NCBI GenBank assembly: GCA_025800395.1
Contig: JAOXRU010000503.1
Coordinates: forward strand, 1 to 64,000
Length of the DNA: 64,000 nt
Direction: 5' to 3'
Origin: Flavobacteriaceae bacterium
GTDB taxonomy: Bacteria; Bacteroidota; Bacteroidia; Flavobacteriales; Flavobacteriaceae
Part shown: piece after piece, positions 28,957 to 45,282 of the stretch
How the letters are laid out: the number at the start of each line of letters is the position of its first letter
Position numbering within the stretch: position 1 is the first letter of the stretch
Translations under genes and position numbers: made by a program
The notes under the pieces: model-generated
What the model saw: only the letters and a program-made list of their open reading frames with translations
Database searches by the model: none
What the model was told of the DNA's origin: nothing

Positions 28957-31722
28957 ATGAGAACAGTTTTATTACTATTTTTTGTTTTGCTTACGTCCGT
29001 AGGATATTCGCAAACAGTAGTAAAGGGAAAAGTTGTAGATGAAGAGAATGTACCTGTGCCTGGTGCTAATATTGTTGTGGAAGGCACTAAATCTGGTACT
29101 AATTCTGATTTCGATGGAAATTTTGTGCTCAACACTACAAAAACACCTCCTTTTACCTTAGTGGTGTCCAGTTTGGGGTATACTTCAAAGAAAGTGCAAG
29201 TTGCTAGAAACAATCAAAACCTCAACATAGTTTTGGCTTCAGAGCAAACTTTATTGGATGAGATCGTGGTTTCGGCCTCTCGAACTCCAGAGCGTATATT
29301 CGAATCGCCGGTTACAGTGGAGCGTTTTGGTATAGAGAAGATCAAAAACACAGCATCGGCCGATTTTTATGATGGCTTAGAAAATTTAAAAGGTGTAGAT
29401 ATCAATACCAATAGCCTTACTTTTAAAGCCATCAATACCCGTGGATTTGCTACATTTGCCAATACCCGTTTCATGCAATTGGTAGACGGTATGGATAACT
29501 CCACACCAGCACTTAACTTCCCAATGGGTAACCTTTTGGGTATGGTAGAAACCGATGTTTTGAGTGTGGAATTGTTGCCAGGAGCCGCTTCTGCACTTTA
29601 TGGTGCAAATGCATTTAACGGTATCTTGTTTATGCGTTCCAAAAATCCATTCGATTACGAAGGAGTAAGTGGTTATATCAAGCAAGGAATCACCTCTCAA
29701 GAAGCAGCAGGAGACAACAATTATACCGATCTCGGAGTGCGTTTGGCAAAGAAATTTACCAAGCACTTTGCTATGAAGGCCAATTTTGGTTACCTGAAAG
29801 GAACCGATTGGATAGCAGACAATCGTGCAGACAAATTGGTTAGAGGATTTACCAGACAAGATCCAGATTATGACGGAATCAATGTCTATGGGGATGAGGT
29901 TTCTACCAACATACGAGCAGCCTCTGGTGGTTTGGGAATCGTGCCAGATGTCAATGTATCTCGTACCGGATATGCAGAACGCGAACTTACAGATTATACT
30001 GCAGAGAGTATGAAAGCCGATATGGGAATCTACTTGCGTCCATGGGCCGACGATTTTGAAATATCTTACCAAGGGAAATACGGAAAAGGAACTACGATTT
30101 ATCAGGGAGCCAACCGTTATTCCATCAAGAATTTCTTCCAGCATCAACAGAAAATTGAGTTGAGAAACGACAATTTCTTTGTTCGTGCTTATATGACCGA
30201 AGATAAGGCCAAGGATTCCTATGATATGGTATTTACAGGTATCAATATCAACCGCTTTTGGAAGCCAGATAAACAATGGTTTGAAGAATATGTACAAACC
30301 TTTATCGGTGCAAGTATTAGTGGTTTGGGAGAAGCAGATGCTCATGCAGCAGCACGTGCAGCAGCGGATACTGGCCGTTTGATACCGGGAACCCCCGAAT
30401 TCCAAACAGCCATTGACCAAGTAACTTCAGATGCCGATTTTTCTAAAGGATCACAGTTTAAAGACAATTCCAAATTTTTCCATGTAGATGCGAACTATAA
30501 TTTATCGCATCTATGGAATGTAGTTGAAATTCAGGTAGGAGGGTCCTATAGAAAATACAGGTTGAATTCTTTTGGAACCATTTATACCGATACGGATTCT
30601 CCCATAGAATACAGCGAAGTTGGTGTGTATACTCAATTGCAAAAGAAATTAGAGTTTTCTGACGAAATGTCGTTAAAATTAACGGGTTCTTTACGTTATG
30701 ACAAATCCGAATTGTTTGACGGATTCTTTTCACCAAGACTTTCTGCAGGTTTGAGTATCAACAGAGACCACAATATACGAGCATCTGTGCAAACCGGATT
30801 TAGAAACCCAACTACCCAAGATTTATATATAGGCTTAGATGTAGGACGTGCAATATTAGTGGGGGCTGCAAGAAACAACCCAGAAAGAGATGTGCGTACT
30901 CTTGAGATTAGCGACGCTGGGGTAGCTGCTTTTGGCTTGCCAAAAACTATTCAAAAAGATGGTACAGGAGCGTATAACAACTCCTTTTTAGCAAGTTCGG
31001 TAAGGAAATTCTTAGCTACTGGTAATGAAGCAGATTTACAAGTTGCAAATTCTGAATTTGTAAAGCCAGAGCAAGTAACTTCTTTTGAGGTAGGATATAG
31101 AGGACGTGTAGAAGGGGTAACTATAGATTTAAGTGGTTATTATAACCGTTATAAAGATTTCTTATCTAATGAAACCGTAACTTCACCTTTGTATGGAAAT
31201 GTTATAGATGGAAACACTTCTGCGCCAAGTGCACTAGCCATATCTGCTATTACTAATGAAGATTTTCAAGATTATCAAACTTATACAAACACAGATAATA
31301 TAATCTCTTCTTATGGGGCATCAATTGGTGTAAACACCAAAGTTTTGGGTGGATTTGATTTGTCTGCCAATTATACCTATGCGAAGTTGGATAAAGATGA
31401 TAACCCAGATTTTAGAACCAATTTCAATACGCCAGAGCACAAAGTGAAAGCTAGCTTTGGAAAAACGGAATTGTTTAAGAATTTTGGATTTAACGTATCT
31501 TGGAGATGGAGCGACACTTATTTGTGGGAAGCTTCTTTTGCAGATGGACAAATTCCAGCCTTCCATGTAATGGATGCGCAGATCAACTATAAGGTGCCTA
31601 GTCTCAAGTCACAATTTAAAGCAGGAGCAACTAACTTGTTGGGAGACGAGTACTTTACAGCAATTGGTACAGGATATATTGGATCTCAGTTCTATGTGTC
31701 TTGGGTAATTAATAATTTATAA
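28957..31722 (+). CDS. TonB-dependent receptor with CarboxypepD_reg-like domain
   Basis: VVKGKVVDEENVPVPGANIVVEGTKSGTNSDFDGNFVL; DEIVVSASRTPERIFESPVTVERF; barrel ending FYVSWVINNL. Confidence 0.93.
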   Translation: MRTVLLLFFVLLTSVGYSQTVVKGKVVDEENVPVPGANIVVEGTKSGTNSDFDGNFVLNTTKTPPFTLVVSSLGYTSKKVQVARNNQNLNIVLASEQTLLDEIVVSASRTPERIFESPVTVERFGIEKIKNTASADFYDGLENLKGVDINTNSLTFKAINTRGFATFANTRFMQLVDGMDNSTPALNFPMGNLLGMVETDVLSVELLPGAASALYGANAFNGILFMRSKNPFDYEGVSGYIKQGITSQEAAGDNNYTDLGVRLAKKFTKHFAMKANFGYLKGTDWIADNRADKLVRGFTRQDPDYDGINVYGDEVSTNIRAASGGLGIVPDVNVSRTGYAERELTDYTAESMKADMGIYLRPWADDFEISYQGKYGKGTTIYQGANRYSIKNFFQHQQKIELRNDNFFVRAYMTEDKAKDSYDMVFTGININRFWKPDKQWFEEYVQTFIGASISGLGEADAHAAARAAADTGRLIPGTPEFQTAIDQVTSDADFSKGSQFKDNSKFFHVDANYNLSHLWNVVEIQVGGSYRKYRLNSFGTIYTDTDSPIEYSEVGVYTQLQKKLEFSDEMSLKLTGSLRYDKSELFDGFFSPRLSAGLSINRDHNIRASVQTGFRNPTTQDLYIGLDVGRAILVGAARNNPERDVRTLEISDAGVAAFGLPKTIQKDGTGAYNNSFLASSVRKFLATGNEADLQVANSEFVKPEQVTSFEVGYRGRVEGVTIDLSGYYNRYKDFLSNETVTSPLYGNVIDGNTSAPSALAISAITNEDFQDYQTYTNTDNIISSYGASIGVNTKVLGGFDLSANYTYAKLDKDDNPDFRTNFNTPEHKVKASFGKTELFKNFGFNVSWRWSDTYLWEASFADGQIPAFHVMDAQINYKVPSLKSQFKAGATNLLGDEYFTAIGTGYIGSQFYVSWVINNL

Positions 31723-31797
31723 TAAAGAAAATTGGGCTGTAGAACAAAAGGCAGCCCAGTCTTTTAGTTAATAAAAGCGTATTAAAGATATTTATAC

Positions 31798-33399
31798 ATG
31801 AAAACAAAATTTTTATGGGCTGCAGCTTTAGCACTTTCGCTAGTAGCATGTGGCGACGATGATGAAGGGATGTCTGTTGCACCGCCAGTTGTGATTCAAT
31901 CTGGTAGTGCGGATTTCACCAAATATGTAGCTTTAGGGAACTCGCTCACTGCCGGGTTTACCGATGGAGCACTGTTTCAGGTAGCGCAAGTAAATTCATT
32001 TCCAAACATCATGGCCAAGACCATGAAAATGGCAAGTGGAGAACTAAATTTCACCCAGCCGATGACTGCCGACAATATTGGTGGTTTGTTATTGGGCGGT
32101 ACACAAATAGCCAATCCGCGTTTGTATTTTGATGGTTCTGGACCAGTAGAATTGACAGCGAATCCTACTACAGAGGTAACGCAAGCTCTTACAGGGCCTT
32201 TTAATAATATGGGAGTTCCCGGAGCCAAGGTTACCCATTTATTAGCACCAGGATACGGAAGTGTAGCAGGTATTTCTTCAGGTACGGCAAACCCTTATTT
32301 TGTGCGTTTTGCTTCTTCCCCTACCGCAACTGTGGTGGGAGATGCAGTAGCGCAAAACCCAACTTTCTTTAGTTTGTGGATTGGAAACAATGATGTACTT
32401 GGATACGCCTTAGCTGGAGGTGCAGGAAGTGCTACCATTACAGATTTGCCTACATTTACAGGAGCTTACAATGCTATTGTAGCACAACTAACAGGGGACG
32501 GTGCTAAAGGAGTGGTTGCGAACATTCCAGATGTAACTACTATAGCACATTTCACCACAGTACCTCACAATCCGTTAGATGCAACTATTGATCCTGATGA
32601 TCCAACGGTTAATGCGGAGTTTAGGGGACAGATTCCGACCCTTAATGCAGTGTATGGAGCACTTAAGCCTATATTTATTGGCTTGGGACATGAAGATCGC
32701 GTGATAGAATTTAAAGACGGCGAATCTAATCCAGTAGTCGTTTGGGATGAAGGATTAACCAATATCGGTCCGCAAATCCAAGCTGCTTTGAGTGCTTCTC
32801 CAGAATTTGCCGCATTTGTGCAAAATTTTGGGTTGTCACCTGCTTCCGTACCAATAGTAGCAAGCTATTTTGGTGCGGCTTACGGTCAGGCACGTCAAGC
32901 TACTGAAAAGGATTTGTTGGTGCTTCCAAGTAAGAATATAATTGGTAAGCCAGATGCCAGCCATGTTGCTACACTTATGGGTATGGGGCTTCCTCAGGCT
33001 CTTGCAGGTCAGTTTGCTGTGGTTGGTGTAACGCTACCAATGTATGATAATTGGGTGTTGGTTCCTACCGAGATTAAGGATATTCAAGACGCTACTAAAG
33101 CATTTAACACAGTTATCGAAGCTGCTGCGAAAGACAATGGCTTGGCCCTAGTAGATGCTAATAAACTTATGGAAGAACTTGCAGAAGGGGGTATTGAATT
33201 TGATAATTTTAAACTTACTTCTCAGTTTGTTCTTGGAGGCGCCTTTTCTTTGGATGGTGTGCATCTTACAGCTCGAGGAGCTGCTCTTGTAGCGAATAAA
33301 TTTATGGAGCAAATAGATGCCACTTATGGTTCAAATCTTATGGATGCTCCTGCCAAGGCTGGAGATTTCGGAACGAGTTATGCCCCAACCCTGAGGTAA
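31798..33399 (+). CDS. SGNH/GDSL-like hydrolase lipoprotein
   Basis: Lipobox SLVACGDD; block I FTKYVALGNSLTAGFTDG; GNND; DGVHLTARGAALVAN. Confidence 0.85.
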   Translation: MKTKFLWAAALALSLVACGDDDEGMSVAPPVVIQSGSADFTKYVALGNSLTAGFTDGALFQVAQVNSFPNIMAKTMKMASGELNFTQPMTADNIGGLLLGGTQIANPRLYFDGSGPVELTANPTTEVTQALTGPFNNMGVPGAKVTHLLAPGYGSVAGISSGTANPYFVRFASSPTATVVGDAVAQNPTFFSLWIGNNDVLGYALAGGAGSATITDLPTFTGAYNAIVAQLTGDGAKGVVANIPDVTTIAHFTTVPHNPLDATIDPDDPTVNAEFRGQIPTLNAVYGALKPIFIGLGHEDRVIEFKDGESNPVVVWDEGLTNIGPQIQAALSASPEFAAFVQNFGLSPASVPIVASYFGAAYGQARQATEKDLLVLPSKNIIGKPDASHVATLMGMGLPQALAGQFAVVGVTLPMYDNWVLVPTEIKDIQDATKAFNTVIEAAAKDNGLALVDANKLMEELAEGGIEFDNFKLTSQFVLGGAFSLDGVHLTARGAALVANKFMEQIDATYGSNLMDAPAKAGDFGTSYAPTLR

Positions 33400-33529
33400 T
33401 TGATTCATTGGTACATCAAAAGGAGGATACGAAGCATATAGGCTATTGGACCGAAGCTTGATTTAGGGTAAAACAAGCTATGGTTTTCCAGTTCCTAGAA
33501 GTCGTTTAAAATCCTTTTGAAAATATATG

Positions 33530-33560
33530 CTAGCTCGCCTTTGGCGGGCTAGTTTTTTTT
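33530..33560 (+). terminator. Intrinsic terminator
   Basis: ctagctcgcc-tttg-like loop-ggcgggctag followed by T8. Confidence 0.8.
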
Positions 33561-34010: not shown

Positions 34011-35936
34011 ATGGACAAGAATATTACTTTTTTTATCATTATGGGATGCTTGTTGGCATTTTTGCCTACCAAAGCTCAGGATCAATTGGCTTACTATCAA
34101 AAAAAGTATCCCAAGGCAGAAGAGGTGATTTTGGAGCAAAGCAACCATATATATATCACCAAAACCAAAGGCGAGTTGCATATAAGAGAGGAGCGAAGCA
34201 AGACCCGATTGTTTCTCACCGATATGGCTATCAAAAACGCAAGAGAATCTGTGTCTCACAACAGTTTTTATACCATAGAAGCCTTGGAAGCGGCTTCTTT
34301 TGTGCCGTACAAAAAAAGATACAAAAAACTGGCTGTAAAAGAGTTTAAAGAAAAAGACAATATGGGCGACTTTTTTTATGACGATTCCAAAAGCACCCAT
34401 TTTTTCTATCCCAATTTACAAAAAGGCGCAAAGACTAAGCTGCGCTACACTGGAATGATCAAAAACCCACGCTTTTTGAGCGGGATCTATTTACAGTCTT
34501 ATATCCCTATAGTCTCTCATCGGGTAGTTATAGAGGTAGACAAGGATGTAGAGCTGGAATTCAATACATTTCATACATCAGAGGGGCATTTCCGCATCGA
34601 TAGCGTACAAAAAGGATCCAAAACGATTTATAGCATACAGATCAAAGAGCAAGATGCCTTTGCGTTCGAATCGGAAAGCCCCGATTATAAATATAGTATT
34701 CCGCATATTATACCGCGAATTACCCAATATCGCATCGATGGAAAAACGACCAAAGTATCTCAAACCGTAAAAGATTTGTACGCATGGTACTTTGGGCTGG
34801 TAAAAGATGTAAATAAACAGCAAGTTGATGCGGAATTGAAAGCATTAGTCCATAGGCTGATAGCGGATAAAAAAACCGATTTGGAAAAAGTGGCTGCCCT
34901 CTACAAATGGGTGCAAGACGAGATAAAATACATTGCCTTCGAATACGCTTTGGGAGGTTTTATTCCCAGAGAAGCCAATGCGGTATTTGAAAAGAAATAC
35001 GGCGATTGTAAAGACAATAGTAGCATTATGCAACAGATGTTACAAGTGGCAGGTTTAGAGAGTTATTTGACTTGGATAGGAACCAGAAGCTTGCCTTATA
35101 GCTATGAAGAACTGCCCACTCCTATGGTAGACAATCATATGATATTGGCCTATAAAGATGGACTCGATTTTTATTTTTTGGATGCTACAGGAAAGTATCT
35201 TCCATTGGATATGCCGTCTCCTTTTATACAAGGAAAAGAGGCCTTGGTGGGTTTGAGTGCAGACAGCTATGCCATAGAGAAAGTACCTGTAATACCAGCA
35301 AAACGCAACACCATTTGGGAAGAAGCTACGCTTGTTTTGGATAAGGGCGTGCTGAAGGGTAAGGCTACAACCACTTTTGGCGGTTATCCCAAAATCCGTT
35401 TGTTTAATCTATTGGAAAAACTCCAAAAACAAGGGGATAAAAAGTCTTTTTTTAGATCTATTTTGGAGAAAGGAAACAATAGTTGTGCGGTTCAGGATAT
35501 ACAAGAAAAAGGGGTGTTTTCTTATGAAGAGGATTATCGCATACAGCATCGATATCAAGTAGATAAATATTATAAGACCATAGGAGAAGATATCTACATC
35601 AATATGAATTTGCGCAAAGAAACGGGGCGTCTTCGTTGGAATAAAGAGCGAAAGCAGGCCTTTGAGCAATCTTTCAAAAGGCAATTCCGGTATACGTATC
35701 GTTTGGAGATCCCAGAAGACTATCGTCTTTCGTACAAACCAGAGGACTTTTATTGCCGTAGCGATGGCATCGAAGCCAAGATAAGCTATAAATTACAAGG
35801 TCAGACACTGGTATATACCCATCATTTGAAACTCGATTTCCTGCTGTTAACTGTTGACGAAATTCATGAAATGAGAAAACACATCAAGAATATAAACAAA
35901 GCCTATCGCGAAGTGGTAGTGCTCCAAAAGAATTAG
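34011..35936 (+). CDS. DUF3857 + transglutaminase-core secreted protein (A1)
   Basis: Signal peptide; YDDSKSTHFFYPNLQKGAKTKLRYTGMIKNPRF; KKYGDCKDNSSIM (Cys333), DNHMILAY (His376), YFLDATGKYLPL (Asp391). Confidence 0.88.
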   Translation: MDKNITFFIIMGCLLAFLPTKAQDQLAYYQKKYPKAEEVILEQSNHIYITKTKGELHIREERSKTRLFLTDMAIKNARESVSHNSFYTIEALEAASFVPYKKRYKKLAVKEFKEKDNMGDFFYDDSKSTHFFYPNLQKGAKTKLRYTGMIKNPRFLSGIYLQSYIPIVSHRVVIEVDKDVELEFNTFHTSEGHFRIDSVQKGSKTIYSIQIKEQDAFAFESESPDYKYSIPHIIPRITQYRIDGKTTKVSQTVKDLYAWYFGLVKDVNKQQVDAELKALVHRLIADKKTDLEKVAALYKWVQDEIKYIAFEYALGGFIPREANAVFEKKYGDCKDNSSIMQQMLQVAGLESYLTWIGTRSLPYSYEELPTPMVDNHMILAYKDGLDFYFLDATGKYLPLDMPSPFIQGKEALVGLSADSYAIEKVPVIPAKRNTIWEEATLVLDKGVLKGKATTTFGGYPKIRLFNLLEKLQKQGDKKSFFRSILEKGNNSCAVQDIQEKGVFSYEEDYRIQHRYQVDKYYKTIGEDIYINMNLRKETGRLRWNKERKQAFEQSFKRQFRYTYRLEIPEDYRLSYKPEDFYCRSDGIEAKISYKLQGQTLVYTHHLKLDFLLLTVDEIHEMRKHIKNINKAYREVVVLQKN

Positions 35937-35938
35937 AG

Positions 35939-37894
35939 ATGAAGAGAATGTTGAACTTGGTGCTATGCCTATGCGGTAGTGCGTTTTTGTGGGCGCAAAA
36001 TGGAAGTTATTTTTATAAAGATTTTGAATGGGAGCCCCATGGGCTTACTTGGCTTGCCTTGGCCAAGCAGACCGATTCGCTGACTGCCCTAGCAGACAAA
36101 ACACAGATTCAATATGTAATAGGTGCCAATAGACTTACCTATACCTACAAATTGCGCCATAGGGTATTGGTGTTGCATACAGATGAGAATATCGAAAAAT
36201 ACAACAAGGTGTATTTGCCTCAGGGAAGAGAAGAAAGGCTTTTGGTAACCAAAGCTCGAGCCATTGCTCCGGATGGAAGTATCCTAGAATTGGACCAGTC
36301 CAAAGTATTGCAGTCCAAAAATGAAGAAAGTGGTAAAGGATACCGGTATTTTGCTTTTGAGGGCTTAAAAAAAGGAAGTATCATAGAGTACTATTTTGTG
36401 GAGAAAGGGGAAGATACTTTTTTGGGAGGAAGGGTGTTTGCCCAAAGACCTTATCCTGTTTACAATTTTAGTTTTGAAGTCATTATGCCCAGTGGGTATA
36501 TGCCTAGATTTAGAAGCTACAACCAGGCTCCAGAAATGAAATTTGAAAAAAAAAGCAGAACGGTAAGAGGGAGGATGAAAGACTTTAGAACCTGGCGTGC
36601 TACTGCGGATACCATTCCTGCTTTACAGAGAGAATCGCTGTCTGCATACGATGTGTACCGTATGTATATTATGTATACGTTCAAAGAAGAAGATGGCTTT
36701 GGTGGTTTTCAGGGCTATGATCAGCTCAAAAATGGTTTTGATGTGTCCTATAAAGCATACAAGCCAAAAAGAAGAGAGCGGCAGGGGCTCAAAAAGATTC
36801 TAGATGCGGTCCAAGTCGCCCATCTTTCTAAAGAAGATCAGATACGAGCCATAGACCATTATATAAAAGAGAACTTTTTGATAAATGGCGCTGGAGCCGA
36901 GGATTTGGAAGGGATTTTAAAAAGCAAAATAGCCAAGACACAAGGCATGATAATGCTATATATGCAGTTGTTCAAGATGCTCGACATTCCCAGCGATATA
37001 GTGATTAGTTGTGACCGAACCGATTTACAGATCGATCCAGAATTTGAAACTGCCTATTACATACAAATGCCACTTTTGTATTTTCCGGAATTTGATAATT
37101 ATTTATCTCCCAATTTTGCGCATACACGATATGGCTATCCTCCCAAATATGTAACTGCAGCTTATGGATTGTATTTGCACAACGATGGGGTAATGGTAAA
37201 AGAGGTGCCAGCGGTAACTGCCGATAAAAATGTGGATCAAATGGAGTTTGAGCTTCGTTTCGATCCAAAGGATTTGGGAGTGAGCGAAATTCAGTACCAA
37301 CAATCTCTTACAGGTTACTATGCCATGTCTATACAGCCATTTTACAAAAATTTCAATGCCAAAGAACGCAAAGAATTACGGGAGTATTTTGCCCAACGTA
37401 TCGATCCGGAAATAGAAATACTCGAGCAGGCTGTGCAAAATAGCAATCCCATGGATTTTGGTAAAAAAGCTTTTGAAATGAACTTCAAATTGCGTTCGGA
37501 GGCCATCACAGAAAAAGCAGGAAACAACTATCTGTTTAAAATTGGTCAGCTTATAGGCAAGCAGTCTGAGATGTATGAAAAGAAAAGCAGAGTTTTGCCA
37601 TTGGAAATAGGAATGCAACGCAACTACAAGCGAAAAATACGCTTTGCAATTCCAAAGGGCTATACCATAGACAATTTGGACGATTTGAATATACATCAAG
37701 AAAAAAGCATAGACGAGCGGGTGCAGTTATTTTTTCGCTCGAGTTATATAGTCGAAGACGATCAGATAGAGGTGACAGCCGACGAGTTTTACAAGTTGAA
37801 TACGGTGTCTGTTGCTCATTTTGATAGTTACCGCAAGGTAATCAATGCAGCGGCGGATTTTAACAAAGTGGTATTGGTTTTGCGTCCAAAATAA
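35939..37894 (+). CDS. DUF3857 secreted protein with degenerate transglutaminase-like domain (B1)
   Basis: Signal peptide; EESGKGYRYFAFEGLKKGSIIEYYFVEKGE; Cys and His of the transglutaminase triad absent (SKIAKTQGMIMLYMQLFKMLDIPSDIVISCDR). Confidence 0.8.
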   Translation: MKRMLNLVLCLCGSAFLWAQNGSYFYKDFEWEPHGLTWLALAKQTDSLTALADKTQIQYVIGANRLTYTYKLRHRVLVLHTDENIEKYNKVYLPQGREERLLVTKARAIAPDGSILELDQSKVLQSKNEESGKGYRYFAFEGLKKGSIIEYYFVEKGEDTFLGGRVFAQRPYPVYNFSFEVIMPSGYMPRFRSYNQAPEMKFEKKSRTVRGRMKDFRTWRATADTIPALQRESLSAYDVYRMYIMYTFKEEDGFGGFQGYDQLKNGFDVSYKAYKPKRRERQGLKKILDAVQVAHLSKEDQIRAIDHYIKENFLINGAGAEDLEGILKSKIAKTQGMIMLYMQLFKMLDIPSDIVISCDRTDLQIDPEFETAYYIQMPLLYFPEFDNYLSPNFAHTRYGYPPKYVTAAYGLYLHNDGVMVKEVPAVTADKNVDQMEFELRFDPKDLGVSEIQYQQSLTGYYAMSIQPFYKNFNAKERKELREYFAQRIDPEIEILEQAVQNSNPMDFGKKAFEMNFKLRSEAITEKAGNNYLFKIGQLIGKQSEMYEKKSRVLPLEIGMQRNYKRKIRFAIPKGYTIDNLDDLNIHQEKSIDERVQLFFRSSYIVEDDQIEVTADEFYKLNTVSVAHFDSYRKVINAAADFNKVVLVLRPK

Positions 37895-38112
37895 TTTTTA
37901 TCTATAGAAGGAATTCCACAAGTTTTGTACAAAGCATATTCGAATAGTCTTGAGGTCGGCGTTGGCTAACAACTATTTCCCTTAGGGCTTTATATGTGGT
38001 ATTTGAAAGACTATATGTTCGCCTCTATGGTAAAAGGCGTAGGCGATTTAAAGTATTTTAAAGAAATGTCGAAATAGCTGTAATTATAATCTCAACAACC
38101 ATAGAAAATTGT

Positions 38113-38120
38113 TATTTTTG
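38113..38120 (+). promoter_or_regulatory. -7-like element (TATTTTTG) immediately before the MORN gene
   Basis: TAnnTTTG match ending 5 bp before the ATG at 38126. Confidence 0.35.
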
Positions 38121-38125
38121 AGTTT

Positions 38126-41100
38126 ATGAGAAAATGCTACATATTATTTGTTTTTCTCTTGTCTGGGGGTTTATTTGCTCAGGAGCGGGAGATTATGTTA
38201 GACGGTGTGTTTTGGAATGATTCTGCTGGCTACTATTTTAACAACAATCAATTGGAAAAAGGCATAAAAGCCTTAGAAAATATAAGCAAAAACGACAGTC
38301 TGTATTGTTCATCTTTGGTGTCTCGGTCGTACTATTTGTTGCAGCTAGACAAGTATGAAAAGTCCCTAGAACTGTTTTCTGAAAAAGAGAAGGCATTTTG
38401 TGAAGAAAAAGCAGAGTCGATATATATCAATAAGGCGGTTGCTCATATTGCTCTCGAGCAATACGACTTGGGGATGGCAGAAATAGAAAAAGGGCTGTCT
38501 GGCTTTCCAAAAAGCTATCTGCTTTGGTACAATAAAGGGAGAGTTTTGCGGGCGCAAAAAAAGTTGCATCAAGCGGTTTTGGCTTTGCAAGAATCGATAC
38601 GATGCAATCCGTATCATCGAAGCAACTATTTGTTGTTGGGAGACATCTATTATCAAAACAGACAGTTTGCCCAATCTCTATTGTATTATAATTTGGGTTT
38701 GTTAGCCGATCCCGATCATGAAAGGGCTGCACGATTGGTGTTGTATTATAATCGCATTAGTTTTAGACAAAACAAAAATCTTGCAGATCCTGAGGTGTCT
38801 TTGCCAGATACTAATGCAGAAATGGATAGGATCAATCGTATTTTGGACGCAAAAATAGCCCTGAGAAAAGATTATCCCTTGCCTTCCAATATAGATATTG
38901 CCTATACCAAACAAAATCATGCCTTGCTGCAACTGCTTCAAGATTACAAGAGCAAGGAGCCTACTTTTTTGCAACAAAAAATTATACCCCTTTTTCAGTG
39001 GATCGCAAAGACACAGGATTTTGAAAAATTCACCTATACCCTTTGTTATAAAATTGACAATGAAAAGTATCAGAAGTTCATAGAGGAAAAACAAGAGGAG
39101 GTTTCTGGTTTTGTAAATGATTTTTATGTCAAAATGGAAACTTTGTTTGGGGAGTTGGAATTGCTGGCAGACGGAAGGGTTCGAAGCGCACATTATACAG
39201 ACGAAGGTTATTTGAGTGGTATAGGATACAAAAAAAACGGGAGCTTTGTTGGTCCATGGACATTCTATACCGAGGATGGTTTGTTGTTGAGTAAGGGGAG
39301 TTTTTCGCAGGAAGAGAAACGTCATGGTGCTTGGACTTGGTACTTTCCGGATGGTAGTGTGGAGCAAACGGTGAACTACAACAATGGAGACCTAGTAGGA
39401 GAATTTGCCTCTTTTTATCGTGGTGGTCGTCCAAAAGTAAAAACCACCTATGTAGATGGTAAGCTAGATGGTAATTATTTGTATTACAATGAGGCAGGTG
39501 CACTCTTGTATGATAGGCAATACCGCAAAGGTATGTTGCATGGCAATTATAAGGAAAATTTTTTGATAGGAGACGGGCATGTCTTGTACGATGCTGTGTA
39601 TGAAAAGGATTCTATAGCTAGTGTTTTTCGCGAATACTATTTGCATGGCAAGTTATACAGGGAAATGCCATATAAAAACGGACGCAAACACGGACAACGC
39701 AAAACCTATTTTGCAGATGGAAAAATACGCGAAACAGTGGGGTTCAAAGAGGGGGAATTTGACGGACAGTTTCAGATTTTCTATGGAGATGGAACTCTAG
39801 AAGAACAAGGACAGTATGTGGCAGGTAGTGCGGAGGGAGAATGGAAAGAGTATTTCCCCAATGCGAAGACCAAATCGGTTTCTTATTATGAAAAAGGCAA
39901 ATTGCATGGTCCTTATAAAGAATATCGCTTGGATGGCAGCTTGTATTATGAGTTTACCTATCGCAAGGGCTTGTTGATAGCATATGTCTTTTTTGACAAA
40001 AACGGAAAGCGGTGGAGTGAGGGCAAGAAAAAAGGAGGGGAATTCTTTTATAAAGGCATGGGTCCCAATGGAGAAGTGAAGACCGAAGGATTATATGATG
40101 TAAAAGGGGGTAAGATAGGAGAGTGGTCGTATTATGATGATCAAGGAACATTGGAGGAACGCGGCATGTACAAAGAAGGTATGGTGCATGGTGTGTATAA
40201 AACATATTACAAAAACGGTGCATTGCGATCGGAGGGAGCGTATGTGCAAGACACCTTACAAGGCAAATATGTACAGTATCATAAAAACAAGGCTATAGAC
40301 GAAATAGGAGGATTTTTAGATGGCAATAGAAATGCTTGGTGGTTTTCGTATTATCCAGATGGTGTTTTAAAGGGGAAAACCTATTACCATCGGGGGAATG
40401 CGCATGGCGAAGAGACCTTGTATAGAGAAGATGGCAGCTTGATGAAGCAATACTACTATCGCAATGGGGGGCTGCTCAAAGAGGTGCATTACGATATGGT
40501 GGGAAAGAAAATAAATGAAATTGATTTTGAAAAACTAAAGCCGCATCAAAAATTACAAAGCGGGGGCTTACATCCCAAGGCCAAAACTATATTTGATTCC
40601 AAATACGCTATGTGGCATGGTCCATATATATCGTATGATTACAGAGGAGAAATACAAATGGCGGGAGATCTTTTGATGGAAAACAAGCAAGGGAAATGGC
40701 AGTGGTTTGAGGATGGGTATTTGGAAACAGAGGCCAACTATGTGCTGGACGAATTGCATGGAACGTATCAAAATTTTCATCCGAATGGCAAATTGCGCAA
40801 CGACAGGAAGTTTCGTTATGGGAAAGAAGAAGGAGAATGGCTGTCTTATTACGAAAACGGTGCGCTGCGTTCCAAATCTTTTGTCGTAGACGACAAATTG
40901 CATGGCAAACGATATTTCTATGACCGATCCGGAAATTTACAATTGATACGATTTTATGAATATGGACGACTTATAGGCTATAGCTATGCGGATGCTGATA
41001 AGCAGGAAAAGCCCATGATAGCTGTAGAAAACGAAACTGCCAAAATCCGATCATTTTATCACAACGGGCAGTTGGCTAGGGAATTAGAATATTACAAGGG

Positions 41101-41413
41101 TGGATTGCACAACGAATATAAGACCTATTCTATAGATGGTGTTTTATTGGGGCATAGTCAATATCGCTTCAATGATGAGCATGGATTTGAAAAAGAGTAT
41201 TTTGATGATGGTAAGTTACGCTTTGAAGGCCATTATGCGCATGGGAAAAAACACGGAACTTTTGTTTGGTACCAGTCCAATGGGAAACCAGAGAAGCTAA
41301 AGACGTATAAATTTGGTTTATTGAGTGGTAAGACAGTGTATTATGATGAGAATGGCAAGGTAAAAACAACCCTTTGGTTTAGCAATGATGAAGTGTATAA
41401 AGTGGTGCAATAA
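38126..41413 (+). CDS. Large secreted TPR + MORN-repeat-variant (YwqK-like) protein
   Basis: Signal peptide MRKCYILFVFLLSGGLFA; TPR-like N-terminus; about two dozen MORN-variant repeats such as HGPYKEYRLDGSLYYEFTYRKG and HGVYKTYYKNGALRSEGAY. Confidence 0.9.
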   Translation: MRKCYILFVFLLSGGLFAQEREIMLDGVFWNDSAGYYFNNNQLEKGIKALENISKNDSLYCSSLVSRSYYLLQLDKYEKSLELFSEKEKAFCEEKAESIYINKAVAHIALEQYDLGMAEIEKGLSGFPKSYLLWYNKGRVLRAQKKLHQAVLALQESIRCNPYHRSNYLLLGDIYYQNRQFAQSLLYYNLGLLADPDHERAARLVLYYNRISFRQNKNLADPEVSLPDTNAEMDRINRILDAKIALRKDYPLPSNIDIAYTKQNHALLQLLQDYKSKEPTFLQQKIIPLFQWIAKTQDFEKFTYTLCYKIDNEKYQKFIEEKQEEVSGFVNDFYVKMETLFGELELLADGRVRSAHYTDEGYLSGIGYKKNGSFVGPWTFYTEDGLLLSKGSFSQEEKRHGAWTWYFPDGSVEQTVNYNNGDLVGEFASFYRGGRPKVKTTYVDGKLDGNYLYYNEAGALLYDRQYRKGMLHGNYKENFLIGDGHVLYDAVYEKDSIASVFREYYLHGKLYREMPYKNGRKHGQRKTYFADGKIRETVGFKEGEFDGQFQIFYGDGTLEEQGQYVAGSAEGEWKEYFPNAKTKSVSYYEKGKLHGPYKEYRLDGSLYYEFTYRKGLLIAYVFFDKNGKRWSEGKKKGGEFFYKGMGPNGEVKTEGLYDVKGGKIGEWSYYDDQGTLEERGMYKEGMVHGVYKTYYKNGALRSEGAYVQDTLQGKYVQYHKNKAIDEIGGFLDGNRNAWWFSYYPDGVLKGKTYYHRGNAHGEETLYREDGSLMKQYYYRNGGLLKEVHYDMVGKKINEIDFEKLKPHQKLQSGGLHPKAKTIFDSKYAMWHGPYISYDYRGEIQMAGDLLMENKQGKWQWFEDGYLETEANYVLDELHGTYQNFHPNGKLRNDRKFRYGKEEGEWLSYYENGALRSKSFVVDDKLHGKRYFYDRSGNLQLIRFYEYGRLIGYSYADADKQEKPMIAVENETAKIRSFYHNGQLARELEYYKGGLHNEYKTYSIDGVLLGHSQYRFNDEHGFEKEYFDDGKLRFEGHYAHGKKHGTFVWYQSNGKPEKLKTYKFGLLSGKTVYYDENGKVKTTLWFSNDEVYKVVQ

Positions 41414-43319
41414 TTGGTTTTTAGGTGGTTTGTTGCTGGGAGTGTATTCCCTCTCGGCTCAAGATCTTGTTTCTACTTATAAGCAGAAGTTTCCGGATGC
41501 GAATTTTGTGATACTAGAGGATCATAGTCATTGGCAAATTCAACAAAAAAACGGTGCTATTCAAATAAAAGTCAAGCGCTACAAAGATATTCTTTATCTC
41601 GACGATACAGCAGTGTCCTTTGCTCAGGAGCGTGTGGGGCACAACAGTTTTTTTGTGTTAAATGACATCAAGGGTGCTACTTTTTTGCCCAAAGGCGATA
41701 GCTACCAAGAGATAAAGGTGAGCGATTATAAAGAGAAGAATAATTTGGACGAATTTTTTTATGACGATAGCAAAACCACCAGTTTTGTTTATCCCAATTT
41801 ACAAAAAGGGGCCAAGAGCAGATTGTCCTATGAGGCAACGATACGTAATCCTCGGTTTTTGAGAACGCAGTATTTTCAGTCTTATGCCCCTATAGTCTCC
41901 AAAAAACTTAGTATAGAGGTAAAAGGAGATGTGAAAATGGATTTTAAGCATTTTTATACAGAGGGAAAAGACTTTGTAATGGATTCTTTGATACGTCGCA
42001 ACAAGAAGCGATATATTTTGGAAATACGAAATCAGGAAGCCTACGATTATGAGCCCAATAGTCCTAGCTTTAATTATGATGTGCCGCATATCGTTCCCCT
42101 TATTGCATCTTATGTTTTTGAGGGAAAAAAAATTGAGGTTTCGGCTTCCGTAGACAGTTTGTATGACTGGTATTATCGGATGGTAGCTCAGATCAATCAG
42201 AACGAGCCCGATGTGGAAATGCAAGCTTTGGTAGCCCAATTGATAGCAGGAAAAACAAATAAGCAGCAAAAGATAGACGCAATCTACCAATGGGTACAAC
42301 AGCAGATAAAGTATATTGCATACGAATATGCCTTAGGAGGATTTATACCCAGAGAGGCAAATGACATATTTCGTAAAAAGTATGGGGATTGCAAAGACAA
42401 AAGTAGCATACTCCAAGAGATGTTGGCTTTGGCTGGCATAAAAAGCTATCTTACTTGGATTGGCACCCGCAAATTGCCGTATACTTATGTCGAAATGCCG
42501 AGCCCGTTGGCAGATAATCATATGATATTGAGTGTGCCCGATGGGGATGTGTTGTACTTTTTGGACGGAACAGGCAAATTTCTTCCATCCGCTACACCTA
42601 CCGTTTTTATTCAAGGAAAGGACGCTCTGATAGGCATGGGCAAGGACAATTATAGAATAGAGAAGGTTCCTATAGTTGCTGCAGCACAGAATCGAATTCT
42701 AGAAAAAGCTATAATACAAATTGAAGAAAATGCCTTAGTTGGGTCTTCATTATTTGAGATGCGAGGCTATCCCAAGGTAGATGCGTTTTATCAATTGGAG
42801 GGCATGCAAAATAAAGAGGAGTTGCAGGTCTATTACAACAAAATGTTGCGCAAGGGAAACAACAGTTTTTTGGCCAAGGAGATCGCAGAAACCAACAAAT
42901 ACGATTTTGAAAAACCCTTTGTTGTGAAGCATCGTTTTCGCATCGCTAAGTATATCAAAAAAAGTGGGGATCAGTTGTATGTCAATTTAAACCTCAATAA
43001 GCTGGTCAAATCCATGGTTTGGAAAAAAGACCGAAAGAAGGCGTACATACAAGACTACAAAAATCAGTATTTGTTGGAGTACGACTTGCAATTACCAGAA
43101 GGGTATACGGTATCCTATTTGCCAGAGAACTTCGAAGAGCATAACGACAAGATACAAGCGAATATTCGATATGAGTTGGTGGGCAATATTATAAAATATC
43201 GCCATGAATTGACGCTCGATTTTTTAGAAATCTCAAAAGAGGAATTAGACGCCAAGCGCAGGAGTTTGAAAAAGATCAGCAAGGCGTATAGAGAAATAAT
43301 AGTGTTAAAGAAAAAATAG
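41385..43319 (+). CDS. DUF3857 + transglutaminase-core secreted protein (A2), paralog of A1
   Basis: YDDSKTTSFVYPNLQKGAKSRLSYEATIRNPRF; KKYGDCKDKSSIL, DNHMILS, YFLDGTGKFLP; start overlaps the end of the MORN gene. Confidence 0.88.
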   Translation: MMKCIKWCNNWFLGGLLLGVYSLSAQDLVSTYKQKFPDANFVILEDHSHWQIQQKNGAIQIKVKRYKDILYLDDTAVSFAQERVGHNSFFVLNDIKGATFLPKGDSYQEIKVSDYKEKNNLDEFFYDDSKTTSFVYPNLQKGAKSRLSYEATIRNPRFLRTQYFQSYAPIVSKKLSIEVKGDVKMDFKHFYTEGKDFVMDSLIRRNKKRYILEIRNQEAYDYEPNSPSFNYDVPHIVPLIASYVFEGKKIEVSASVDSLYDWYYRMVAQINQNEPDVEMQALVAQLIAGKTNKQQKIDAIYQWVQQQIKYIAYEYALGGFIPREANDIFRKKYGDCKDKSSILQEMLALAGIKSYLTWIGTRKLPYTYVEMPSPLADNHMILSVPDGDVLYFLDGTGKFLPSATPTVFIQGKDALIGMGKDNYRIEKVPIVAAAQNRILEKAIIQIEENALVGSSLFEMRGYPKVDAFYQLEGMQNKEELQVYYNKMLRKGNNSFLAKEIAETNKYDFEKPFVVKHRFRIAKYIKKSGDQLYVNLNLNKLVKSMVWKKDRKKAYIQDYKNQYLLEYDLQLPEGYTVSYLPENFEEHNDKIQANIRYELVGNIIKYRHELTLDFLEISKEELDAKRRSLKKISKAYREIIVLKKK

Positions 43320-43323
43320 AAAT

Positions 43324-45282
43324 ATGCGAATACAATTTGTGATTATATGTGGTGTGCTGGGGATTTTTTTGGGTAAAGCACAAGAGTTGCAGTATCAAAA
43401 ATTTAATTGGGATTCTTCGACCAAGCAGTTACTAAAAAAAGCAAAAGGAATAAAAGAGAAGACCCTATTGCACGACAAGGTAGAGGTGCAATTTGTCTAT
43501 GAAGAAGGTGGAGAATTGGTGGAATATATGCTTATGCATAGAGCCATGGTTTTGTGCACCGATGAGGAAATAGAGTCCAACAACAAATTGTATCTCCCGC
43601 GAAAAGAGGAGGCGGAATTATTGTTGACCAAGGCTAGAGTGATCCAGCCCAAGGGAAGGGTAATCGAGCTGGATGGCTCTAAGGTGTTGACAGCTAAGGA
43701 TGAAGAAAGTGGTCAGCAATATAGTTATTTTGCATTTGAAGGAGTAGAAAAGGGCAGTATAGTGGAGTATTATTATGTAAAGAAAAGCAGGCCTCGTTTG
43801 AATGGGAGTCGCATATGGTTGGCAGAATCGAATCCCAAGCAAGAGATGCGGTTTGATTTGTACAGTCCTGTTCATTTAGAATTTGCATTGAAAACGTATC
43901 ATTCGGATATCATTTTCGAAAAAGACACCATAGGCGAAAAAACAGCCCATTGGAAGCTACGTGCGTATGACATACCTAGTTTTGAAGACGAACCACAAGC
44001 CCCTTATTTGGCAATGAGACCACAATTATTGTACAAATTGCACAACAACAATTACAATGGGGTAGACGATATTTCTGGTTACAATGAAGTGGCGCAAAAC
44101 CTCTATGCGTTTTACTATAGGGAAGTTAGTGAGGCGCTCTCTCAAAAATTGGACGCAATACTCGATCGCTCGGGAGCTAGACAGGCCCAGGGAGAAGATA
44201 GGATCCGTGCGATAGATCAGGAATTGAAAACCAATTTTTTGACGCACGAACAAGGGGCGATAAGTTTAGAAAAGGTGCTCGAGACCAAGGCAGCCAATTC
44301 GAGAGGGATGGTACGTTTGTATGTTGCCTTACTTACAAAGTTGGGGATGGAGCACCAGATAGTTCTTACCTCTGATCGTCGCAATATGGTGCTGGACAAA
44401 AATTTTGAGGCCCATAATTTTCTAAACGATTTTTTGCTTTATTTTCCAAGCTATCACAGCTATTTGTCTCCCGATGATGCAGATACGAGATATGGGTACC
44501 CACCCGCATATTTGACCGATTGCAACGGCTTGTATATAGAAGAAGTTGCTATAGGATCGTACCGTTCGGCTGTAGCCCATGTAAAGCATATAGATGCCGT
44601 TCCTGCCTCCAAAAGCAAGGACAATATGCAGATGCGGATCCAATTTGATGCGGAGGACTTGGGAATAAACACCATAAGCTATACCAGAGAGTGGTCGGGT
44701 TATTATGCGATGTATTACCAACCCTATTTGCATATGAGTAGTGAGGAAGAGCGAGAGGAACTCCTCGATTATATAGCTAAGAATGTACAAGAAGAAGCAG
44801 AAGTAATTCGTAGTGAAATGCTGTATACTACGGTGGGCGATGTGGGGAAAAACCCCTTGATTTTTAAATTGGAATTGGAAACAGAAGCACTTACCGAAAA
44901 GGCGGGCAACAACTATTTGTTTAAATTGGGAGAGCTCATAGGAGAGCAACAGCAGATGTATCAAGAAAAGGAGAGAAAATTGCCATACGAAAGCGAATTT
45001 GAAAGAATGTATGAGCGAAAGATAGTGCTAGAAATTCCCAAGGGCTATACTATTGCCAATGTAGAAGACATCCGCATAAAGCGCGAACATCGTATAGGCG
45101 GAAAAAGGGTATTTTCTTTTGTTTCGGATTATCGTTTGCAAGGCAATACCTTGGAGATAGATGCGGATGAGTTTTATGCGCAAAACAAGATTGCTTTAAA
45201 AGATTTTCAGGCATATAGAAAAGTAATCAATGCGGCAGCGGATTTTAACAAAGTGGTTTTGGTATTGCAGCCAAAAAAATAA
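43324..45282 (+). CDS. DUF3857 secreted protein with degenerate transglutaminase-like domain (B2), paralog of B1
   Basis: EESGQQYSYFAFEGVEKGSIVEYYYVKKS; TKAANSRGMVRLYVALLTKLGMEHQIVLTSDRR lacks Cys; C-terminus YRKVINAAADFNKVVLVLQPKK nearly identical to B1. Confidence 0.82.
   Translation: MRIQFVIICGVLGIFLGKAQELQYQKFNWDSSTKQLLKKAKGIKEKTLLHDKVEVQFVYEEGGELVEYMLMHRAMVLCTDEEIESNNKLYLPRKEEAELLLTKARVIQPKGRVIELDGSKVLTAKDEESGQQYSYFAFEGVEKGSIVEYYYVKKSRPRLNGSRIWLAESNPKQEMRFDLYSPVHLEFALKTYHSDIIFEKDTIGEKTAHWKLRAYDIPSFEDEPQAPYLAMRPQLLYKLHNNNYNGVDDISGYNEVAQNLYAFYYREVSEALSQKLDAILDRSGARQAQGEDRIRAIDQELKTNFLTHEQGAISLEKVLETKAANSRGMVRLYVALLTKLGMEHQIVLTSDRRNMVLDKNFEAHNFLNDFLLYFPSYHSYLSPDDADTRYGYPPAYLTDCNGLYIEEVAIGSYRSAVAHVKHIDAVPASKSKDNMQMRIQFDAEDLGINTISYTREWSGYYAMYYQPYLHMSSEEEREELLDYIAKNVQEEAEVIRSEMLYTTVGDVGKNPLIFKLELETEALTEKAGNNYLFKLGELIGEQQQMYQEKERKLPYESEFERMYERKIVLEIPKGYTIANVEDIRIKREHRIGGKRVFSFVSDYRLQGNTLEIDADEFYAQNKIALKDFQAYRKVINAAADFNKVVLVLQPKK

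Follow-up and report, generated by a model that had tools for sequence, protein, structure and literature searches.

Five genes stand in tandem on the forward strand of the window (the whole stretch of 64,000 nucleotides that was analysed), in the order A1-B1-MORN-A2-B2 (Table 1). A1 and B1 are separated by 2 bp and A2 and B2 by 4 bp, while the start of A2 lies within the MORN gene with an overlap of 29 bp. These ORF calls reproduced the coordinates and spacings of the initial annotation, which had also placed signal peptides on all five products. Genes for a TonB-dependent receptor and then an SGNH-hydrolase-like protein (window 28957-33399) are directly 5′ of a strong terminator-like hairpin and A1. 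This hairpin is likely the upstream limit of the transcription unit, as judged from its sequence. A promoter scan was uninformative, with 42 sites compared with 35 expected.

Table 1. Positions of genes and of one other feature at the locus
Feature	Position in window	Strand	Description
A1	34011..35936	+	641 aa; signal peptide, DUF3857 and transglutaminase core with intact Cys-His-Asp; extra lineage-specific copy
B1	35939..37894	+	651 aa; DUF3857 and degenerate transglutaminase fold without catalytic residues; fast-diverging extra copy
TPR-MORN	38126..41413	+	1095 aa; signal peptide, N-terminal TPR (residues about 100-205), MORN_2 repeats (about 350-1090)
A2	41385..43319	+	644 aa; DUF3857 and transglutaminase core, Cys336/His379/Asp394; ancestral position, overlaps MORN gene
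B2	43324..45282	+	652 aa; catalytically dead A paralogue, invariant C-terminal tail RxxxNxAAxFNK
Intrinsic-terminator-like hairpin	33529..33553	+	11 pairs followed by a T-run; between SGNH-hydrolase-like gene and A1; consensus match only

Pfam models assigned DUF3857 and Transglut_core to the A proteins, DUF3857 to the B proteins, and TPR and MORN_2 repeats (E=7.5e-41) to the middle protein. Scores for DUF3857 (PF12969) were 36.7-44.5 bits in A1, A2, B1 and B2 (cut-off, 24.6). For the transglutaminase-like superfamily (PF01841; cut-off, 23), A1 and A2 scored 33.2 and 30.4 bits, B1 and B2 fell under the cut-off, and 16 of 50 B homologues matched at E<=0.01. Several repeats of MORN_2 (PF07661) gave the MORN protein 133.8 bits (cut-off, 29.6), and its 89.6 bits for the LIC20035 family adhesin (NF033566) stayed under the equivalog score of 250. 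Proteins of the DUF3857 family, common in Bacteroidota, still bear the name 'domain of unknown function'.

By simple pattern rules, the N-termini of all five proteins resemble Sec-type signal peptides without a lipobox, in agreement with the export that had been predicted for all of them. Signal-peptide-like N-termini were found by the same kind of rules across the A, B and MORN families, where a lipobox was almost absent. No NCBIfam model for the C-terminal sorting domain of T9SS matched any of the five proteins. Taken together, these N-termini, the near absence of a lipobox and the lack of a sorting-domain match make Sec export to the periplasm the plainest prediction, and we infer a periplasmic location for the A, B and MORN proteins.

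Active-site residues of the A and B proteins

In an alignment covering six families, the catalytic triad Cys336, His379 and Asp394 (A2 numbering) was kept in all 79 A homologues, and the three residues were likewise invariant among 50 aligned A proteins. The triad was lost in B, with Cys in 0, His in 1 and Asp in 3 of the 77 rows. The residue at the position of the catalytic Cys in B was mostly Glu, Ser, Asn, Asp, Thr or Leu. The pairing of an active with a dead DUF3857 protein, as proposed at the outset, was thus borne out well beyond the window. Homology between A and B spans the full length and is detectable only by profiles (E=4e-12 or 1.5e-11). The C-terminal motif RxxxN.AA.FNK was invariant across 50 aligned B proteins. 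The pair appears as a clean bacterial case of an enzyme with its pseudoenzyme, in the cell envelope by prediction.

AlphaFold2 models of A2 and B2 had mean pLDDT values of 91.0 and 92.2, and their best match in the PDB was 3kd4 in both cases (E 3e-31 and 3e-23, respectively). This entry is BDI_1141 of Parabacteroides distasonis, a solved DUF3857 protein annotated as 'putative protease'. It shares its overall fold with the A2 model (TM by target 0.79) and the B2 model (0.70), but the identity is only 11-13%. At the place aligned with YGDCKD of A, 3kd4 reads YGTPLE and is without the cysteine of YGDC; it therefore resembles a dead member. Our literature search found no paper on the function of 3kd4. 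PDB searches with the A1 and B1 sequences alone gave no matches, and a search with the A profile matched 3kd4 weakly. The N-terminal domain of M1 aminopeptidases and ribophorin I (OST1) fit the N-terminal, beta-rich part of the models (Foldseek E 1e-8 to 1e-4), but with TM of only about 0.2 these matches carry no weight for function. Neither A nor B had a Pfam match to the catalytic domain of peptidase M1, so they were not placed in that family.

Two further classes of DUF3857 tandem, ii and iii, were found, each with a live A followed by a dead B of similar lengths and with predicted export. The catalytic Cys was present in 0/14 and 0/12 of their dead members. Class ii pairs are about 31% identical to A and class iii pairs 18%; neither has a TPR-MORN gene upstream, and a 108-aa gene often comes next in class iii. 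These tandems are like A-B in the live/dead order, but unlike it in the chromosomal neighbourhood, which recurs within each class. Because all three classes show this pattern of Cys loss, the live/dead arrangement holds generally for the DUF3857 tandems sampled in these genomes. The MORN partner marks one class of them, the one tied to TPR-MORN across Bacteroidia. In 14 genomes mapped (L147-L160), class ii pairs were flanked by menE-like and CPBP-protease-like/menC-like genes.

Conservation of MORN, A and B

We drew 80 named loci from GTDB genomes with a profile built from 13 A proteins. Their genera were mostly marine Flavobacteriaceae (Aquimarina, Polaribacter, Maribacter, Aequorivita, Gramella, Hyunsoonleella and others), and a few loci came from other Bacteroidota. 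A TPR-MORN gene was directly 5′ of A in 76 of the 80 loci. The MORN and A genes overlapped in 57 of these 76, most commonly by 32 bp, in keeping with the earlier view of MORN-A2-B2 as one tight unit. The median gap between A and B was 7 bp and the median length of the MORN protein 1097 aa. No further gene was conserved beside MORN-A-B, any one being found in at most 10 of the 80 loci.

A sample of 201 Flavobacteriaceae-level genomes, the window's genome among them, gave a similar picture. A close A-B pair was present in 17 genomes and MORN in 16, all within the same 17, and in those 16 MORN was directly upstream of A (hypergeometric P for co-occurrence about 1e-22, kinship ignored). The sole A-B genome without an intact MORN gene, G174, has a broken MORN remnant; its contig is also represented among the named loci, as Aureicoccus marinus L136. 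In the two A. marinus loci, L136 and L161, MORN is a 159-aa open piece, A has 584 aa and B has 440 aa; their module is apparently decaying or frameshifted. Across the class Bacteroidia, MORN was detected in 44 of 295 genomes, and A was immediately 3′ on the same strand for 39 of the 43 MORN matches outside the window.

Therefore, the gene-neighbourhood search suggested in the initial annotation upheld a conserved locus for the three genes MORN-A-B (76/80 and 39/43), not for the array of five, which was seen in the window only. We rejected the five-gene array as a conserved unit since a second pair of the A-B class was absent from the 80 named loci and from every other genome of the 201 examined. 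In brief, MORN-A-B is a widespread three-gene operon in Bacteroidia, and A1-B1 is a local addition.

Pairwise distances of A, B and MORN correlated with each other (r=0.87-0.88, 71 loci). This implies joint inheritance, although the correlation alone does not show contact. A-B without an upstream MORN gene occurred in L110, L120 and L132, which form one Flavobacterium-like clade with small genomes (1.7-2.5 Mb), and a search of these genomes gave no full-length or good MORN match elsewhere. MORN was therefore probably lost once. This clade and the MORN-free DUF3857 pair classes indicate that MORN is dispensable for some A-B pairs. An apparent 1749-aa 'MORN-A fusion' in L181 was rejected as an N-masked stretch: the MORN-sized stretch 5′ of A (L181:3858-7150, genome G515) reads as N.

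Origin of the A1-B1 pair

A1 and A2 are 46% identical over 633 aa without gaps (E=0), and B1 and B2 are 39% identical over the full length (E=4e-151), which agrees with their description as paralogs. A1 and A2 were sisters in the A tree (79 rows; SH-aLRT 100), and so were B1 and B2 in the B tree (77 rows; support 99). Neither A1 with A2 nor B1 with B2 thus fell into unrelated DUF3857 lineages, and these sister relationships indicate that A and B were duplicated together, as had been supposed. The simplest reading is that A1-B1 is the added copy, because A2-B2 occupies the usual place behind MORN. The branch of B1 in the tree is long (1.85, compared with 0.86 for B2), which lowers certainty; both window proteins are also of odd composition.

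B1 deviated from 9 of 46 columns otherwise conserved at 99% or more, and B2 from 2. At 63 conserved columns in A, A1 departed at 3 and A2 at 7. The near-identical C-termini noticed in the window are real, but they do not serve as a sign of a recent copy since the shared words are a family-wide feature and the 54-bp DNA of the B motif has 8 differences between B1 and B2. On the same grounds, we rejected gene conversion as a recent event in the B tails. The kept active site of A1 and the diverging B1 suggest a second enzyme pair with a changed choice of substrate or partner.

Possible function of the module

All the parts belong to known domain families, and the MORN-linked live/dead DUF3857 tandem is, class-wide, an undescribed combination. 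In the open-access literature we found no relevant paper and no published description of MORN-A-B, in line with the initial annotation, which knew of no described system of such an architecture.

MORN-A-B would be an envelope module that is ancient in Bacteroidia. A would be a Sec-exported thiol enzyme of transglutaminase fold with a Cys-His-Asp triad, and it would form an acyl-enzyme with a peptide or protein of the envelope as substrate. The acyl group might then pass to water, as in a peptidase or amidase, or to an amine, as in a transglutaminase. B, the full-length dead paralogue, could be a regulatory or substrate-holding partner of A, and TPR-MORN a long scaffold of repeats in the periplasm, onto which A-B or its substrate would dock. 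In the lineage of the window, A-B would have been copied upstream of MORN, with the A1 active site kept and B1 diverging. As a whole, this model of an ancient module with a thiol enzyme, a dead partner and a scaffold in the periplasm has our slight preference. The sequences show the order, conservation and co-occurrence of the genes, the triad in A and its loss in B, the signal-peptide-like N-termini and the joint duplication of the pair; the physical A-B-MORN complex, the enzymatic activity and the roles of B and MORN are what we infer.

By sequence, a protease, an amidase and a cross-linker would look alike; the 'peptide-processing or crosslinking complex' of the initial annotation is a reasonable guess. 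A narrower reading takes A as a strict transglutaminase: envelope proteins would be cross-linked through their Gln and Lys side chains, and the MORN protein itself would be scaffold or substrate. The Transglut_core fold and triad of A are consistent with this, as is the neighbouring gene for a long repeat protein. However, the fold alone does not distinguish transglutaminase from peptidase chemistry, bacterial transglutaminase-fold proteins are often peptidases, and the best structural match, 3kd4, is annotated as a putative protease; we regard strict cross-linking as unlikely.

It is similarly improbable that the genes are merely co-transcribed, with products that act separately in the envelope and form no stable complex. 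Conservation of an operon is by itself no proof of contact, and the A-B pairs without MORN, in the other classes and in the clade of L110, L120 and L132, would fit separate action. Against it stand the near all-or-none co-occurrence, the fixed order over many families and the live/dead pairing in three classes, and also natural fusions. Single chains of 1250-1266 aa with TPR, DUF3857 and Transglut_core and with export-signal-like N-termini were found in other family members, at L174:3900-7649, L175:3857-7639 and L176:3764-7561. Like the partners in MORN-A-B, they join TPR to DUF3857 and transglutaminase domains, but in one chain, without MORN repeats and without a separate B. They support a physical link between TPR and enzyme.

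We give still less credence to a non-enzymatic system, in which the role of A and B would be to bind peptides or peptidoglycan and to anchor MORN for adhesion or envelope architecture. A precedent exists in polymorphic toxins: a role as peptide-binding anchors has been proposed for their inactive transglutaminase domains (PMC3482391). Like B, these are exported transglutaminase-fold domains that have lost the C/H/D triad; unlike B, which stands alone and is paired with an active paralogue, they precede RHS repeats and toxin domains (PMC3482391). The MORN repeats also have a weak, below-cut-off similarity to the LIC20035 adhesin model. The perfect triad in the A homologues, however, points to selection for catalysis. 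A toxin-antitoxin or anti-phage system is barely tenable: MORN_2 proteins are often annotated as 'YwqK antitoxin', but apart from this name the case is opposed by the pattern-rule export signals on all proteins, by the lack of a match to PADLOC models of known anti-phage defence systems (E<=0.01) or of an NCBIfam toxin or antitoxin model over cut-off, and by parallel trees among close relatives, which are not a mobile pattern.

Returning to the enzyme with its dead partner on a scaffold, we offer a broader version only tentatively: a class-wide machine of the envelope, built on a secreted thiol acyl-transfer enzyme that its dead paralogue would control and a MORN beta-ribbon would hold, the window being an elaboration by duplication of the core. 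MORN-A-B is a concrete, testable functional unit, with Cys336 as the predicted catalytic cysteine of A2.

Other arrangements of DUF3857 were also seen. The tandem at L177:2986-11516 consists of four genes (689-711 aa), each with a DUF3857 match, and only one of them has the YGDC motif. A pair of similar genes (about 405 aa each) adjoins this tandem; they look, by eye only, like Ntn hydrolases of the choloylglycine-hydrolase type. An 843-aa fusion of DUF3857, Transglut_core and DUF2569 at L178:3562-6090 is probably a membrane-anchored form.
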